Source of the DNA: a virus | DNA: 35,474 bases | Direction: 5' to 3' (one strand) | Virus record (IMG/VR): IMGVR_UViG_3300020183_000244 | Location: 1 to 35,474 of that record | Shown here: piece by piece, positions 19,987 to 24,937 of the stretch | Layout: every line of letters starts with the position of its first letter | Numbering within the stretch: the stretch's first letter is position 1 | Notes under the pieces: model-generated | What the model was told of the DNA's origin: nothing | The model's input: only the letters and a program-made list of their open reading frames with translations | The model's database searches: none | Position numbers and translations under genes: made by a program

Positions 19987-21129
19987 ATGGCAAAACAGTT
20001 AATAAGTGTTGGTTCCTCACCAAATGATGGGACTGGTGATACTCTTCGAGCAGCTGGTCAAAAACTTAATTCTATGTTAACAGAAGTCTACGATAAACTC
20101 GGAGATTCTACAAACATACAAATTGATATTGGAACTACGATAACTGCTGGGCACGTATTGAGATCATCTGGAACTGCATTTGTTCCTGCTCCTTTATCTT
20201 ATACAGATATCATCAATAGACCAACAATTCCTGCAGCACAAGTTAATGCTGACTTCAATGCTACTAGCGGTGTTGCACAGATTCTTAATAAACCAATTCT
20301 TGCTGCTGTAGCTACATCTGGAGCATATAATGATCTAACTGGTAGACCTACTTTGTTTTCTGGGGCATATAATGATCTAACTGGAAGACCAACATTTGCC
20401 ACTGTTGCAACTAGTGGATTATATGAGGACTTGCTAAACAAACCTACTATTCCAGCAGCACAGGTAAACACTGACTGGAATGCAACAACAGGTATATCTA
20501 GAATTTTAAATAAACCAACACTTTCAACAGTAGCAACTTCTGGAGCATATAATGATTTAATTGGCAAACCAACATTATTTGATGGAAACTACAATAGTTT
20601 GACAAATAGACCTACTATCCCAACAAACTTAGATTCCATTACTGATGTTGTTTTAACATCACCAACAACAGGTCAAGTTTTAAAGTATGACGGTGCAAAC
20701 TGGGTAAATGATACGGATCTAGCTGGATCTGGTGGCGGTGGTAGTTCACTACAAAATAGAGGAACATTATCAGTTTCAACAAGTTCTATTGCAAACAATG
20801 CAGCAACGAATGTTGGACTTGTTGGTTATAAGTCTTATGCACTATTAAAAGTTGAGACCAACTATGCTGCTTGGGTCACTATCTACACGTCTACAAGTGC
20901 TAGAACTGCAGATTCGGGTAGACCTGAAACTACCGACCCAACTCCAGGTTCGGGAGTTATTGCAGAAGTAATAACTACTGGTGCAGCAACACAATTAATT
21001 ACACCAGCCGCTATCGGATTTAATAATGATGCTACACCGTCAACAAACGTATATTTAAAAGTTGTTAATAAATCTGGTTCTACACAGAGCATTACAGTTA
21101 CCCTAACACTTCTGCAACTAGAGGCATAA
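19987..21129 (+). CDS. Tail-fibre-like repeat protein (380 aa)
   Basis: The N-terminus has IGSSPNDGTGDTL-like sequence (VGSSPNDGTGDTLRAAGQKL, residues 8-27), a recurring start of marine T4-like phage fibre and baseplate-attached proteins. Residues about 71-213 hold eight short repeats ending in N/G-(R/K)-P-(T/I), such as SGAYNDLTGRPT and NKPTIPAAQVN. This pattern belongs to trimeric fibre shafts. A Gly/Ser hinge (GSGGGGSS, about 250-257) leads to a C-terminal beta domain of about 120 residues (YALLKVETNYAAWVTIYTST onward) ending TVTLTLLQLEA. It is preceded by a late promoter and AGGAG, and its stop is one base from the protease ATG, so the two are probably cotranslated. Role in host contact is inferred. 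Confidence 0.8.
   Translation: MAKQLISVGSSPNDGTGDTLRAAGQKLNSMLTEVYDKLGDSTNIQIDIGTTITAGHVLRSSGTAFVPAPLSYTDIINRPTIPAAQVNADFNATSGVAQILNKPILAAVATSGAYNDLTGRPTLFSGAYNDLTGRPTFATVATSGLYEDLLNKPTIPAAQVNTDWNATTGISRILNKPTLSTVATSGAYNDLIGKPTLFDGNYNSLTNRPTIPTNLDSITDVVLTSPTTGQVLKYDGANWVNDTDLAGSGGGGSSLQNRGTLSVSTSSIANNAATNVGLVGYKSYALLKVETNYAAWVTIYTSTSARTADSGRPETTDPTPGSGVIAEVITTGAATQLITPAAIGFNNDATPSTNVYLKVVNKSGSTQSITVTLTLLQLEA
20197..20626 (+). repeat. Fibre-shaft repeats (about 8 x N/G-K/R-P-T units)
   Basis: Short units repeat within the 380-aa protein: SYTDIINRPT, SGVAQILNKPI, SGAYNDLTGRPT (twice), SGLYEDLLNKPT, GISRILNKPT, SGAYNDLIGKPT and GNYNSLTNRPT. Two longer blocks (PAAQVN-A/T-D-F/W-NAT) are themselves duplicated, giving a higher-order repeat. 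The DNA copies gcatataatgatctaactgg at about 20325 and 20367 are almost identical, pointing to recent duplication. Confidence 0.8.
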
Positions 21130-21130
21130 T

Positions 21131-22801
21131 ATGGAAGAGCAGGAATATATTGTATCGTTAAAGAATTTTGAAGATTTAGAAGAATTTTATGATGATATGG
21201 AAACCTCTGGGGGAACACTTTACATTCCTGATAGGATAGTAGATTGTAGTGTAAGAAGAGCAATTAGTAGAAATACTCATTATACTCTTACAGAATCAGA
21301 AGCTACCCAATTAAGAAAAGATCCTAGAGTGTTAACCGTTGAGAGATTACCAAAAGATCGTGGTATAGAAACAACACCATTCTGGACTCAAGGACCAGCT
21401 GCGTTCGAGAAGAGCAGTGCAATCGATCAAGCTGATAAGAATTGGGGACTACTAAGATTAATCGAGGGTGGTCCATATTCAAGTTGGGGAACAGACGGAG
21501 CGTTTACTCAAAGAAATGCAACCATACAAACTACTAGTTCAGGTAAAGACGTTGATATAGTAATTGTTGATGCTCATATAAATCGTCTTCACCCAGAATT
21601 TGCAGTCAATGCAGATGGAACTGGTGGTAGTAGAGTTATACAATTTGATTGGTTTTCTCTAAGTGAATATCTAGATATACCGACTACTGGAGCATATAAC
21701 TACTCAGTATCTGTACGTAGTAATCATGGAACTCACGTAGCTGGAACAGCTGCAGGTAATACTCAAGGATGGGCAAGAGATTCTAATATCTATTACATTG
21801 AATTTAATTATACTGCAGCTGGTGGAACATTTACACCAGGATCATGGGATTTATATTTATTTGACTATATTAGAGCATTTCATCTCACTAAACCCATCAA
21901 CCCATCTACAGGAAGAAGAAATCCAACAATTTGTAATAATAGTTGGGGATATAGTTATGGTAATATTTCGTTAGGAGATATTTTCCAAGTACAATATCGA
22001 GGAGTAATTTCTAGTTTAGCTAACTTATCTACAGTTACAAAAAAATCAGCACTTGAAGAAAGTGGTGTTCCTGTTCCTTTTGACACTTATTTGTTTAAAA
22101 CACCAGCACGAGTGACTGCACTAGATTTAGATGTTGCGGACGCAATAGAAGATGGTGTAATAATTGTTGGATCTGCTGGTAATTCATATTGGAATTGTGC
22201 CAGACCTGGAACAGCAGATTATAATAATACTGTAACTGCTGGACAACAGATCTTCCATTCTAGAGGATCTAGTCCTTCTGCAGCTGAAGGTGCAATTTGT
22301 GTTGGAAGTGTTGGTGCTAGAGCAATTGAATATAAATCAACATTTAGTAATTATGGAAATAGAATAGATGCTTGGGCACCTGGATCAAATATCATTTCTG
22401 GAGTATTTGATGCTAGTGCAGCATCAGAATTTGGTATTACTCTTGCATTTGATCCAAGAGATCCTAATTACAGAATTGGATCTATATCTGGAACTAGTAT
22501 GTCTGGTCCACAAATTAGTGGTTTACTTGCTTGCCTTGCTGAGCAGTTTCCAAATATGTCTCAGTCGCAAGCTCTTTCATACTTACAAACAAAATCTAGG
22601 ACTGGGCAGGTTATCTCTAGTGGTGGGAATGCTGGTGATTACACCTCTCTTGGAGATGCAACCACAGGGACAACAACTAAACATGCTTTATATAACTATG
22701 AGAGACCTTTAGTAGGACATGTTACACCAAAACCCAATTTTGGATTGCGAGCAACCAGCGGACAGACATTTCCTCGTTTTATTACTCAACGAACTAAATA
22801 A
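21131..22801 (+). CDS. Subtilisin-family (S8) serine protease, intact catalytic triad
   Basis: A 556-residue S8 peptidase. The triad is visible: Asp147 in IVIVDAHINRLHPEF, His199 in NHGTHVAGTAAG and Ser456 in GTSMSGP. The oxyanion Asn351 lies in SAGNS. NNSWGY (269-274) is the usual substrate-cleft block. Residues about 5-72 (EYIVSLK, then RKDPRVLTVERLP) resemble the I9 propeptide that folds and inhibits subtilisins. No signal peptide or membrane segment is seen, so secretion is not expected. The Asp motif is DAH rather than the common D-(S/T)-G. It follows the fibre-like gene by one base and precedes a beta-repeat structural gene, so it is probably virion-associated. Plausible jobs are maturation of the large neighbours or digestion of host surface protein. 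Family is certain; role is inference. Confidence 0.92.
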   Translation: MEEQEYIVSLKNFEDLEEFYDDMETSGGTLYIPDRIVDCSVRRAISRNTHYTLTESEATQLRKDPRVLTVERLPKDRGIETTPFWTQGPAAFEKSSAIDQADKNWGLLRLIEGGPYSSWGTDGAFTQRNATIQTTSSGKDVDIVIVDAHINRLHPEFAVNADGTGGSRVIQFDWFSLSEYLDIPTTGAYNYSVSVRSNHGTHVAGTAAGNTQGWARDSNIYYIEFNYTAAGGTFTPGSWDLYLFDYIRAFHLTKPINPSTGRRNPTICNNSWGYSYGNISLGDIFQVQYRGVISSLANLSTVTKKSALEESGVPVPFDTYLFKTPARVTALDLDVADAIEDGVIIVGSAGNSYWNCARPGTADYNNTVTAGQQIFHSRGSSPSAAEGAICVGSVGARAIEYKSTFSNYGNRIDAWAPGSNIISGVFDASAASEFGITLAFDPRDPNYRIGSISGTSMSGPQISGLLACLAEQFPNMSQSQALSYLQTKSRTGQVISSGGNAGDYTSLGDATTGTTTKHALYNYERPLVGHVTPKPNFGLRATSGQTFPRFITQRTK

Positions 22802-22825: not shown

Positions 22826-24937
22826 ATGGCAACAGTACCTGGATCTGGAGCAGTAATATTACCCGTTTTTAATAAACAGACTCTTGGAGTAGATTCTGTA
22901 ATTGTTAAAAACGGAGGGTCTGGGTATAGCTCAACACTTCCACCTATTTTGGTTGTAAAGCATTGTGGTCAACCAATTAGAGATGCTATTCTAAGACCAA
23001 TAATAGATGATGGTAAAATAGTTTCGGTAAGAGTAGTAGATCCTGGAGAAGGATACGATCCGCTAAGAGTTAACTTTACTCCAATATTGCCAAATCCAGA
23101 CTCTGAAGTTCCAGATGAAGCAGAGGCACAAGTTGTCCTAAAGTCAGATGGCACTGTCGATTACATCAAAGTTCTTAGGGGTGGTGATAAGCAATTTTAT
23201 GAGGTAGATACTGAAGTTGTTGGAGGCGAAGGATCTGGAGCAGTAGTTAAATCTGTACCAAAAACAGTAACTGGATTATCGATTTTAAATAAAGGTAGTG
23301 GTTATGAAGAACCTCCGTTTTTAAGTATCACTGGCGGTGGCGGACGAGGTGCTAGAGGTGTTGCGGATATTGATCCTGCTGGAATTGTTTCTCCAAACTT
23401 TACTATTAGTGATCCAGGGCAGTTCTATCTACAAGCACCATATATTTTACTAGTCGGTGGTGGAGGTTTAGGAGCAAGGGCAAGAGCAACTATAAGTCAA
23501 GGCAGTATTGATCAAATAATTTTAGAAAATCCTGGTAAAGGTTATACTTCATCACCAAAGGTTGTTTTTGCTAGGAATGTAAAATTAAAAAGAATTTCTA
23601 GAAATAGACAGGCATTTAATTCAGAGAAATTTAATTTTTCTGGTATATCTAGAAACGTTGGTAGAGCAGATACTCAAATTTTTGTTTCTTCTACTGACGG
23701 ATTTCCAGGGTCTGGAGTTTTGCTACTAGGAAAAGAATTACTTAGATATACAGGAAAAGACAGTAATAGATTTACTGGTTTAACAAGAGGAATCAATTTA
23801 AGATATGACCAAAGAGTTATATTAGATAACACTCAAGATGATCCTGTTAGTGGCATCAGTGGATATGTATTTAATATTGGTGATACAATTGTCAGAGTCG
23901 TTGAAAATGCGTCAAATAAAATTGCCATAGTTTATGATTGGGATCCAACAACCAAAGAACTTTTTATAGTATTCCAAGTTGATGAACTTGCATTTATTGA
24001 TGCTGGTTTACCAGGAGAAAAATCTAATGTAGTCTTTGATGCTGGAATTGCTGATTCAACAGGAACATTTGATCTTCCACATGTCGTAATTGATAAAGAA
24101 GATTCTATAATCTATAAATTAACTGTACCTGTATCATTTGAACTTGATAAAGCATTTGAGGACGATGATGAATTAGACGGTGATGGTAATGGTCTGCCCG
24201 ATTTGATAAATACAGGAACTGATTATGAAGATCAGATAAATTTAGATGGGGGTATAGCATCTACACTTTATGGTATTGAAGAAACTGAAGGTGGGCAAAA
24301 TACCACACTATTTGAAGTTGGTGATACCATAAAAGATTCTAGTGTTCCATTTAAAACTTCTACGGTTTCGGATGCAAGTAATCTTAACGAAGGTTTGGAT
24401 CATAAAGTACAACTAACTGTTAAACTTGATAATAGGAATCCAAGTAATAACAATGGCATTACGTTTATACCAGGAGAAACAGTCACTGGAAATAGTTCTC
24501 AAGTTCAAGCTACAGTAGTATCTTGGGATCCTACTAATTTAATACTTGTATTAAAAGACGTTGTAGCATTTGACACTGGTAATCCTACAATTGGATCTTT
24601 ACATAAGTTTTCAGATACTGGAACTGTTGTAGATGTTAGAATTTTATCTAGAGGAAACAATTTTGCAACTGCACCCAATGTAGTATTCCAAACAAATGGA
24701 GTTATTTCTGCAGTTGCAACATCCGTATTACTGGCAGACCAGGTTGATAACGTCGTCATTTCTAATGGTGGATATGGATATGAAACTCCTCCTACAGTAT
24801 CATTTACTGGCGGTGGAGGAACAGGAGTCGTTGCTCAAGCAATCTTGGGTGGAGAAAAACTTATTGGTCAGAATGGTGCTTCATGGAGAATTTTGAACAT
24901 TAGTTATGATACTCAGTTTAGAAACGATGTAAATTAA
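22826..24937 (+). CDS. Beta-repeat structural protein (703 aa), GSGY modules
   Basis: An all-beta-looking protein built from the modules seen in the giant protein. About eight GSGY units are present, in the N-terminal 250 residues and again near 610-680 (VKNGGSGYSSTLPPILVV, LENPGKGYTSSPKVVF, ISNGGYGYETPPTVSF). A GFP/RG module lies at about 285-323 (VSSTDGFPGSGVLLLGKELL, then LTRGIN). A Ca-binding-like loop is DGDGNGLPD (451-459). An S-x-x-x-A module lies at about 547-577 (FIPGETVTGNSSQVQATVVS). No catalytic motif, signal or membrane segment is visible. Its position between the S8 protease and gp8 suggests a baseplate-attached decoration or spacer. I do not recognise a named T4 counterpart. 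Confidence 0.8.
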   Translation: MATVPGSGAVILPVFNKQTLGVDSVIVKNGGSGYSSTLPPILVVKHCGQPIRDAILRPIIDDGKIVSVRVVDPGEGYDPLRVNFTPILPNPDSEVPDEAEAQVVLKSDGTVDYIKVLRGGDKQFYEVDTEVVGGEGSGAVVKSVPKTVTGLSILNKGSGYEEPPFLSITGGGGRGARGVADIDPAGIVSPNFTISDPGQFYLQAPYILLVGGGGLGARARATISQGSIDQIILENPGKGYTSSPKVVFARNVKLKRISRNRQAFNSEKFNFSGISRNVGRADTQIFVSSTDGFPGSGVLLLGKELLRYTGKDSNRFTGLTRGINLRYDQRVILDNTQDDPVSGISGYVFNIGDTIVRVVENASNKIAIVYDWDPTTKELFIVFQVDELAFIDAGLPGEKSNVVFDAGIADSTGTFDLPHVVIDKEDSIIYKLTVPVSFELDKAFEDDDELDGDGNGLPDLINTGTDYEDQINLDGGIASTLYGIEETEGGQNTTLFEVGDTIKDSSVPFKTSTVSDASNLNEGLDHKVQLTVKLDNRNPSNNNGITFIPGETVTGNSSQVQATVVSWDPTNLILVLKDVVAFDTGNPTIGSLHKFSDTGTVVDVRILSRGNNFATAPNVVFQTNGVISAVATSVLLADQVDNVVISNGGYGYETPPTVSFTGGGGTGVVAQAILGGEKLIGQNGASWRILNISYDTQFRNDVN

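Follow-up and report, generated by a model that had tools for sequence, protein, structure and literature searches.

A Subtilisin-Like Protease with a Predicted I9-Type Prodomain Is Encoded Directly behind a Knob-Ended Fibre Gene in T4-Like Cyanophages

The Protease Gene and Its Surroundings

The window, by which we mean the whole 35,474-base virus record that was analysed, contains an intact reading frame that begins with ATG and encodes a 556-residue protease, whose features are listed in Table 1 together with those of its neighbours. This frame lies in a run of structural genes consisting of a gp25-like baseplate gene, a gp6-like baseplate gene, a 5,534-residue ORF, the fibre-like ORF, and the protease, which are followed by genes for a phrog_708 baseplate protein, a gp8-like protein, and a 2,422-residue DUF4815 protein. 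An identical gene order was observed for S-CREM1 and S-H38, the nearest isolates. The ORF coordinates agree with a preliminary description of this DNA, which had placed the protease one base from a fibre-like gene among structural genes. It had also stated that the protein lacks a signal peptide; a hydrophobic signal sequence was looked for at the N-terminus, and none is present.

Table 1. Features of the protease gene and its neighbours in the window.
Feature	Position	Strand	Basis or remark
S8 subtilisin-like serine protease, 556 aa, phrog_9158, proteinase K type	21131..22801	+	Profile and structure prediction
I9-type prodomain, residues 1-72, beta-alpha-beta-beta-alpha-beta	21131..21346	+	Below Pfam cut-off; remote relative
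Linker, residues 73-104, predicted to contain processing site	21347..21442	+	
Catalytic domain, residues 105-526	21443..22708	+	Structural alignments to proteinase K, PCSK9
Catalytic Asp147, in DAH	21569..21571	+	Asp in 186/186 homologues
Catalytic His199, in HGTHVAG	21725..21727	+	His in 186/186
Oxyanion-hole Asn351, in SAGNS	22181..22183	+	Asn in 185/185 covering site
Nucleophile Ser456, in GTSMSGP	22496..22498	+	Ser in 183/183 covering site
C-terminal tail, residues 527-556, clade-A motif FPR	22709..22798	+	Candidate anchor
Upstream fibre, 380 aa, conserved partner gene	19987..21129	+	Ends 1 nt before protease
Fibre N-terminal region, T4 gp9/10-like; baseplate attachment by family	19993..20307	+	PF07880 E=4.1e-7
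Type-A knob domain, fibre's last 132 aa; predicted beta-sandwich	20731..21126	+	
Baseplate-wedge protein, phrog_708; context, not conserved neighbour	22826..24937	+	Downstream of protease

Distribution of the Family

The protease matched the profile of phrog_9158 over its whole length (E=1.1e-102, residues 3-552). Databases list members of this family under the names phrog_9158 (function unknown), T4-GC_292, "subtilisin-like serine protease", or "hypothetical protein"; they share 57% (S-CREM1), 56% (S-H38), and 29% (P-SSM2) identity with the window protein. The family was found in 41 phage records, each from a cyanophage or a marine virus assigned to the Kyanoviridae; since approximately 460 cyanophage records hold a gp6 homologue, it is an accessory family. 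A genome scan gave six matches (L186-L191), all located on MAG-binned contigs and all preceded by a knob-ended fibre, so that they were read as phage DNA. A search for close bacterial relatives or a host origin thereby came to nothing; the plasmid matches were ordinary S8 enzymes of 23-33% identity. Two of the MAG-binned members (L188:3582-6170 and L189:3603-6170; Rhodobacteraceae bin) carry an insertion of approximately 300 residues after the catalytic Asp, which contains the motifs HTIHxFGI and ELHLAMKEAIDxxxxDPSGY. No paper on the function of this family was found in the literature searched.

Catalytic Domain and Active Site

The Pfam Peptidase_S8 profile (PF00082) matched residues 138-489 with E=3e-24 and a score of 86.3 bits against a cut-off of 21.8. 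An AlphaFold2 model built on 80 family sequences exhibited a mean pLDDT of 90.7 and a pTM of 0.84, and its best structural match was 2b6n_A (VIA Z 35.6, rmsd 2.4 over 272 residues), followed by a second structure of proteinase K type, 4dzt (Z 35.0). The alignments to proteinase K and PCSK9 begin at model residue 85 or 91. The four active-site residues are embedded in the motifs VIVDAHI (Asp147), NHGTHVAG (His199), SAGNS (Asn351), and GTSMSGP (Ser456), and were examined in 186 homologues, including the window protein, that were collected from public phage records, IMG/VR, and genome contigs. Each residue is invariant wherever it is covered (Table 1), in counts that are not independent because the set collapses to 117 sequences at 90% identity. 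The NG86 dN/dS ratio was 0.13-0.38 for nine of ten pairs, which are moderately diverged, the tenth pair being near-identical. An invariant active site combined with a low dN/dS looks like the pattern expected from selection for a working enzyme. With a significant profile match, a conserved predicted fold, the Asp-His-Ser triad, and the oxyanion Asn all found, the assignment holds that the window protein is an intact S8 subtilisin of proteinase K type, predicted to be catalytically competent. The four catalytic parts occupy exactly the positions given for them beforehand.

The Asp motif, for which the preliminary description regarded DAH as unusual, proved to be a more particular case. DAH indeed differs from what textbook subtilisins show, yet no other form is as common within this family: it is present in 60 of the 186 homologues, ahead of DTG (52), DSG (29), DSH (16), DGH (11), DDP (7), and some rarer ones. 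The D-x-H and D-x-P forms make up one clade of the protease (type A) and the D-x-G forms the other (type B); in the type-A clade, the position two after the catalytic Asp (window 21569-21577 for the motif) is always His or Pro instead of Gly. As judged from these alignments, DAH is a clade mark. Its reading as a sign of lost function was ruled out, since the motif is typical of the clade and the Asp itself never changes. The same comparison bears on the idea that the subtilisin fold persists here as a mere building block, an inactive structural relic. The distant knob partner of S-CAM1, in which Glu takes the place of the catalytic Asp, lends something to this idea, which we nevertheless consider scarcely credible, as the active-site residues are kept wherever they are covered among the 186 members while the surrounding Asp motif drifts.

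Prodomain, Linker, and C-Terminal Tail

The N-terminus of the AlphaFold2 model consists of a strand (residues 4-10), a helix (13-24), two strands (39-41 and 48-53), a second helix (55-61), and a last strand (67-72), with block pLDDT values of 87-96 up to residue 70. This is the β-α-β-β-α-β order of the I9 propeptide, located directly N-terminal to the S8 domain. The Pfam I9 profile gave a match in register (E=0.0057, residues 52-72 aligned to positions 55-75 of 82), whose score for residues 1-84 was 17.7 bits and did not reach the cut-off of 21.2; similar sub-cut-off, in-register matches were obtained for four of eight family members tested. Because the score lies below the curated cut-off, we term this region I9-type and remote, and do not file it in PF05922. 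An hhalign comparison of the region with the prodomains of three bacterial S8 proteins, of which Pfam verified two as I9, gave P=3e-4 and 60 co-linear columns at a probability of 39-44%, while the highest probability among 60 column shuffles was 1.3%. A clade-A profile of the prodomain matched nothing relevant among PDB sequences. On this sequence and model evidence, the N-terminus is a remote I9-type prodomain, which upholds the earlier suggestion of an I9-like region. It is plausible that the prodomain keeps the protease silent until assembly or contact.

The prodomain is followed by a linker, which is approximately 30 residues long in the window protein; other members have a longer one. The linker of S-TIM54 contains an inserted esterase domain of more than 300 residues, located between prodomain and protease. 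At the other end, residues P548 and R549 are invariant in clade A, and the pLDDT falls below 50 at residues 538-556. This C-terminal tail may represent an anchor.

The Upstream Fibre and Its Knob

A scan of the gene directly upstream, made where the upstream sequence was usable, detected 168 loci with a same-strand ORF ending at the protease start, and for 163 of these the distance was -4, -1, or +1 nt. Inspection added another ten, where the fibre ORF lies at +3 to +6 nt or the start is misplaced. The fibres range from approximately 100 residues, some being clipped by contig ends, to more than 1,600, and the exception is S-TIM54, which has an S8 protein without a knob fibre upstream. The C-terminal domain of these fibres, approximately 110-125 residues long, belongs to type A in 91 loci, to type B in 73, and to neither in four. 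All 91 type-A knobs accompany a D-x-H/P protease and all 73 type-B knobs a D-x-G protease, giving a match of 164/164. Judging from gene order, the fibre directly upstream is the constant partner of the protease. Protease and knob distances were also correlated, with a Mantel r of 0.42 for clade A (permutation null maximum 0.23) and a weak 0.21 for clade B (null maximum 0.16), where the fibre N-terminus correlates nearly as well as the knob (0.17 vs 0.21). Co-inheritance of a two-gene cassette would explain the knob-protease match as well as physical docking. A natural fusion joining knob and protease in one chain was sought, and none was found. This fibre-knob cassette rule appears to be undescribed in the literature searched.

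The type-A knob was modelled as a β-sandwich with a pLDDT of 93.6. A comparison with the PDB gave no standout match, the best VIA Z of 7.1 being below a meaningful level, and the best Foldseek match was a viral turret protein (E 3.9e-4). The knob weakly resembles viral turret and jelly-roll domains, including the jelly roll at the C-terminus of Tk-SP subtilisin; the jelly-roll domains of Tk-SP subtilisin and furin among its matches were not counted as evidence.

The protease is not the only partner of these knobs. Where a type-A knob of a cyanomyovirus does not precede this protease, it is followed either by a second family, here called P2, at a distance of 0-5 nt, or by the divergent S8 of S-CAM1. 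P2 was observed in S-H9-1, ACG-2014i, S-BM3, Sf-CH1b, S-SCSM1 (S-SCSM1_232), and AG-345-F15. Both knob types occur in S-SCSM1 and AG-345-F15, where S8 comes after the B knob and P2 after the A knob; S-SCSM1 has a second B-type domain with neither S8 nor P2 after it. That each knob type of these two phages has its own partner gene points to a fibre-plus-partner module. The P2 loci are L016:2575-4878, L012:1175-3505, L193:4380-6206, L194:4383-6680, L021:808-2778, and L198; many of their proteins begin with MAVxKxEYxVNGGNTGW and contain a cupredoxin-like stretch, and a Pfam match sought in five members was not found. The S-CAM1 partner (L192:4389-6644) carries a cupredoxin-like insert and is, from its altered Asp position, a possible pseudo-protease.

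The baseplate operon turned out to be a looser association than this fibre. The preliminary description had located the protease in a baseplate operon, which is correct for the window, but across the family the operon and its giant gene are occasional neighbours. Among loci with at least 2.5 kb of upstream sequence, a homologue of the giant gene was located upstream for 17 of 63 type-A and one of 50 type-B loci, so that the protease is mostly located away from it, and a general rule tying the protease to its giant neighbour or to the baseplate operon was thereby rejected. These counts also weigh on the proposal that the protease processes the neighbouring giant structural proteins of 5,534 or 2,422 residues. 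Their adjacency in the window, S-CREM1, and S-H38 would suit such a role; the fibre-protease pair of S-RSM4, P-SSM2, and S-WAM2, however, is placed near tRNA, metabolism, or tail-fibre genes, and together with the rarity of the giant homologue this makes the proposal very improbable. A separate observation is that S-BM3 has a giant ORF of 2,648 residues upstream of a knob fibre (L193:1-1418), annotated as peptidase S8 (T4-GC_519), which is another S8 lineage among cyanophage structural genes.

Virion Association and Proposed Function

The S-SCSM1 homologue S-SCSM1_228, a protein of 1,411 residues with a LamG-type C-terminus, and its fibre 227 both bear the note "virion protein" in the sequence record. 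A total of 45 virion proteins were detected for this phage by mass spectrometry (PMC9602691), whereas approximately 48 genes carry the note; it is hence strong but indirect evidence. The non-structural proteins named as detected, NMNAT, ORF213, and ORF214 (PMC9602691), are included among the genes so noted. The S8 protein of S-TIM54 is likewise recorded as a virion structural protein, and 14 virion proteins were described for S-CREM1 in a text that does not list them by ORF.

Several relatives possess additional domains. Besides the LamG domain of S-SCSM1, esterase-like and cupredoxin-like domains were detected in the S-MbCM7 member (both Pfam matches below cut-off), and the cupredoxin-like domain also occurs in L191 and, by sequence, in ACG-2014i and S-H9-1. 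The S-TIM54 protein (L006:6036-12458; 2,140 residues) is composed of an I9-type prodomain, an esterase, a subtilisin with an intact triad, and Ig domains. Domains of this kind are common among proteins that act at surfaces, and their presence speaks for a role at the host surface.

That the protease almost always lies directly behind a fibre with a matching tip domain suggests the same use. We consider it fairly probable that the protein is a virion enzyme, produced as a zymogen, which sits at the tip of a fibre attached to the baseplate and acts on a host-surface protein, where the docking on the knob, the zymogen control, and the surface substrate are what we infer from the comparisons above. 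Lacking a signal peptide, the protease would be synthesized in the dying host's cytoplasm and would join the virion as the partner of the fibre whose gene lies directly upstream. The fibre N-terminus, gp9/10-like in the window, would fix the fibre to the baseplate, and the C-terminal β-sandwich knob would carry the protease, placing the enzyme at the fibre tip or edge. The I9-type prodomain may aid folding and hold the protease inactive until its incorporation or an encounter with a cell. Upon contact, the protease would cut a host-surface protein such as an S-layer, giant surface proteins, pili, or a receptor shield, and this proteolysis would open access in the manner that glycan-cutting tailspikes clear capsules.

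The main rival to this host-surface role is fibre maturation, in which the protease would cut the upstream fibre during assembly, or trim a knob or chaperone segment from it, and then remain in the particle as a by-product. The tight gene coupling and the knob-clade matching are compatible with it, since a maturation enzyme gives the same gene order, as is the virion note carried by both the fibre and the protease of S-SCSM1; moreover, the usual view of structural peptidases in phages is that they process virion proteins (PMC7824862). Maturation, however, would have no need for the lectin, esterase, and Ig domains of the relatives, and the pairing of the same knob type with a non-protease partner indicates that the knob does not require an S8 enzyme. 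We regard maturation as unlikely. An intracellular or lysis-stage enzyme was also considered, which would act on cytoplasmic host proteins or, when released by lysis, strip receptors from debris. It would account for the missing signal peptide, and other subtilisins do occur in phages and large viruses, but it is an improbable reading of a gene that lies in a structural-gene run and whose relatives include surface-type domain fusions and a flagged virion protein.

Of the two roles offered in the preliminary description, digestion of host-surface proteins thus fits the comparative evidence better, and processing of the giant proteins fared poorly; the intact catalytic machinery, the I9-type prodomain, and the location within a run of structural genes were supported, as was, by way of a relative, a probable association with the virion. 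A wider proposal, which we advance tentatively and hold to be somewhat doubtful, is that many T4-like cyanophages possess modular fibre tips, on which a C-terminally encoded β-sandwich knob holds in trans a swappable partner, either a zymogen subtilisin or a member of the second family. The protease, armed once its I9-type prodomain is lost, would then be the protein-cutting counterpart of the glycan depolymerases and would help set the host range. If the host-surface role is true, surface proteins of picocyanobacteria would be a barrier or receptor that these abundant cyanophages clear by proteolysis. Many cyanophage genes now called "hypothetical" or "subtilisin-like" would gain a testable role with the knob named as the partner candidate, and phage entry into Synechococcus and Prochlorococcus would become experimentally approachable through the catalytic Ser of the protease.

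Comparison with Known Systems

The protease shares its catalytic fold, the D-H-N-S residues, and an N-terminal I9-type prodomain with proteinase K and aqualysin I (MEROPS S8A). It differs from them in having no signal peptide, a mature domain of approximately 420 residues instead of approximately 280, which contains large loop insertions, a long linker after the prodomain, the D-A-H motif, and a place in a phage-fibre cassette. It belongs to a known enzyme family in an apparently undescribed, fibre-coupled setting. The fibre itself resembles the gp9/gp10 baseplate fibres of T4 in that it starts with a T4_gp9_10_N match, whereas in the cyanophage cassette a knob and a coupled enzyme come after; we know of no protease partner for the gp9/gp10 fibres in T4. 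In gene arrangement, the cassette can be likened to gp37-gp38 of T-even phages, where a separate tip protein, the adhesin gp38, is encoded directly downstream of the fibre, although the coupled downstream gene here encodes an S8 protease. The virion enzymes known to act on the bacterial surface are mostly sugar-cutting ones, such as the glycan-depolymerase tailspikes that act on the cell envelope. The cyanophage enzyme, for which action on the envelope is proposed, differs from these tailspikes in being protein-cutting and in forming a chain separate from the fibre.
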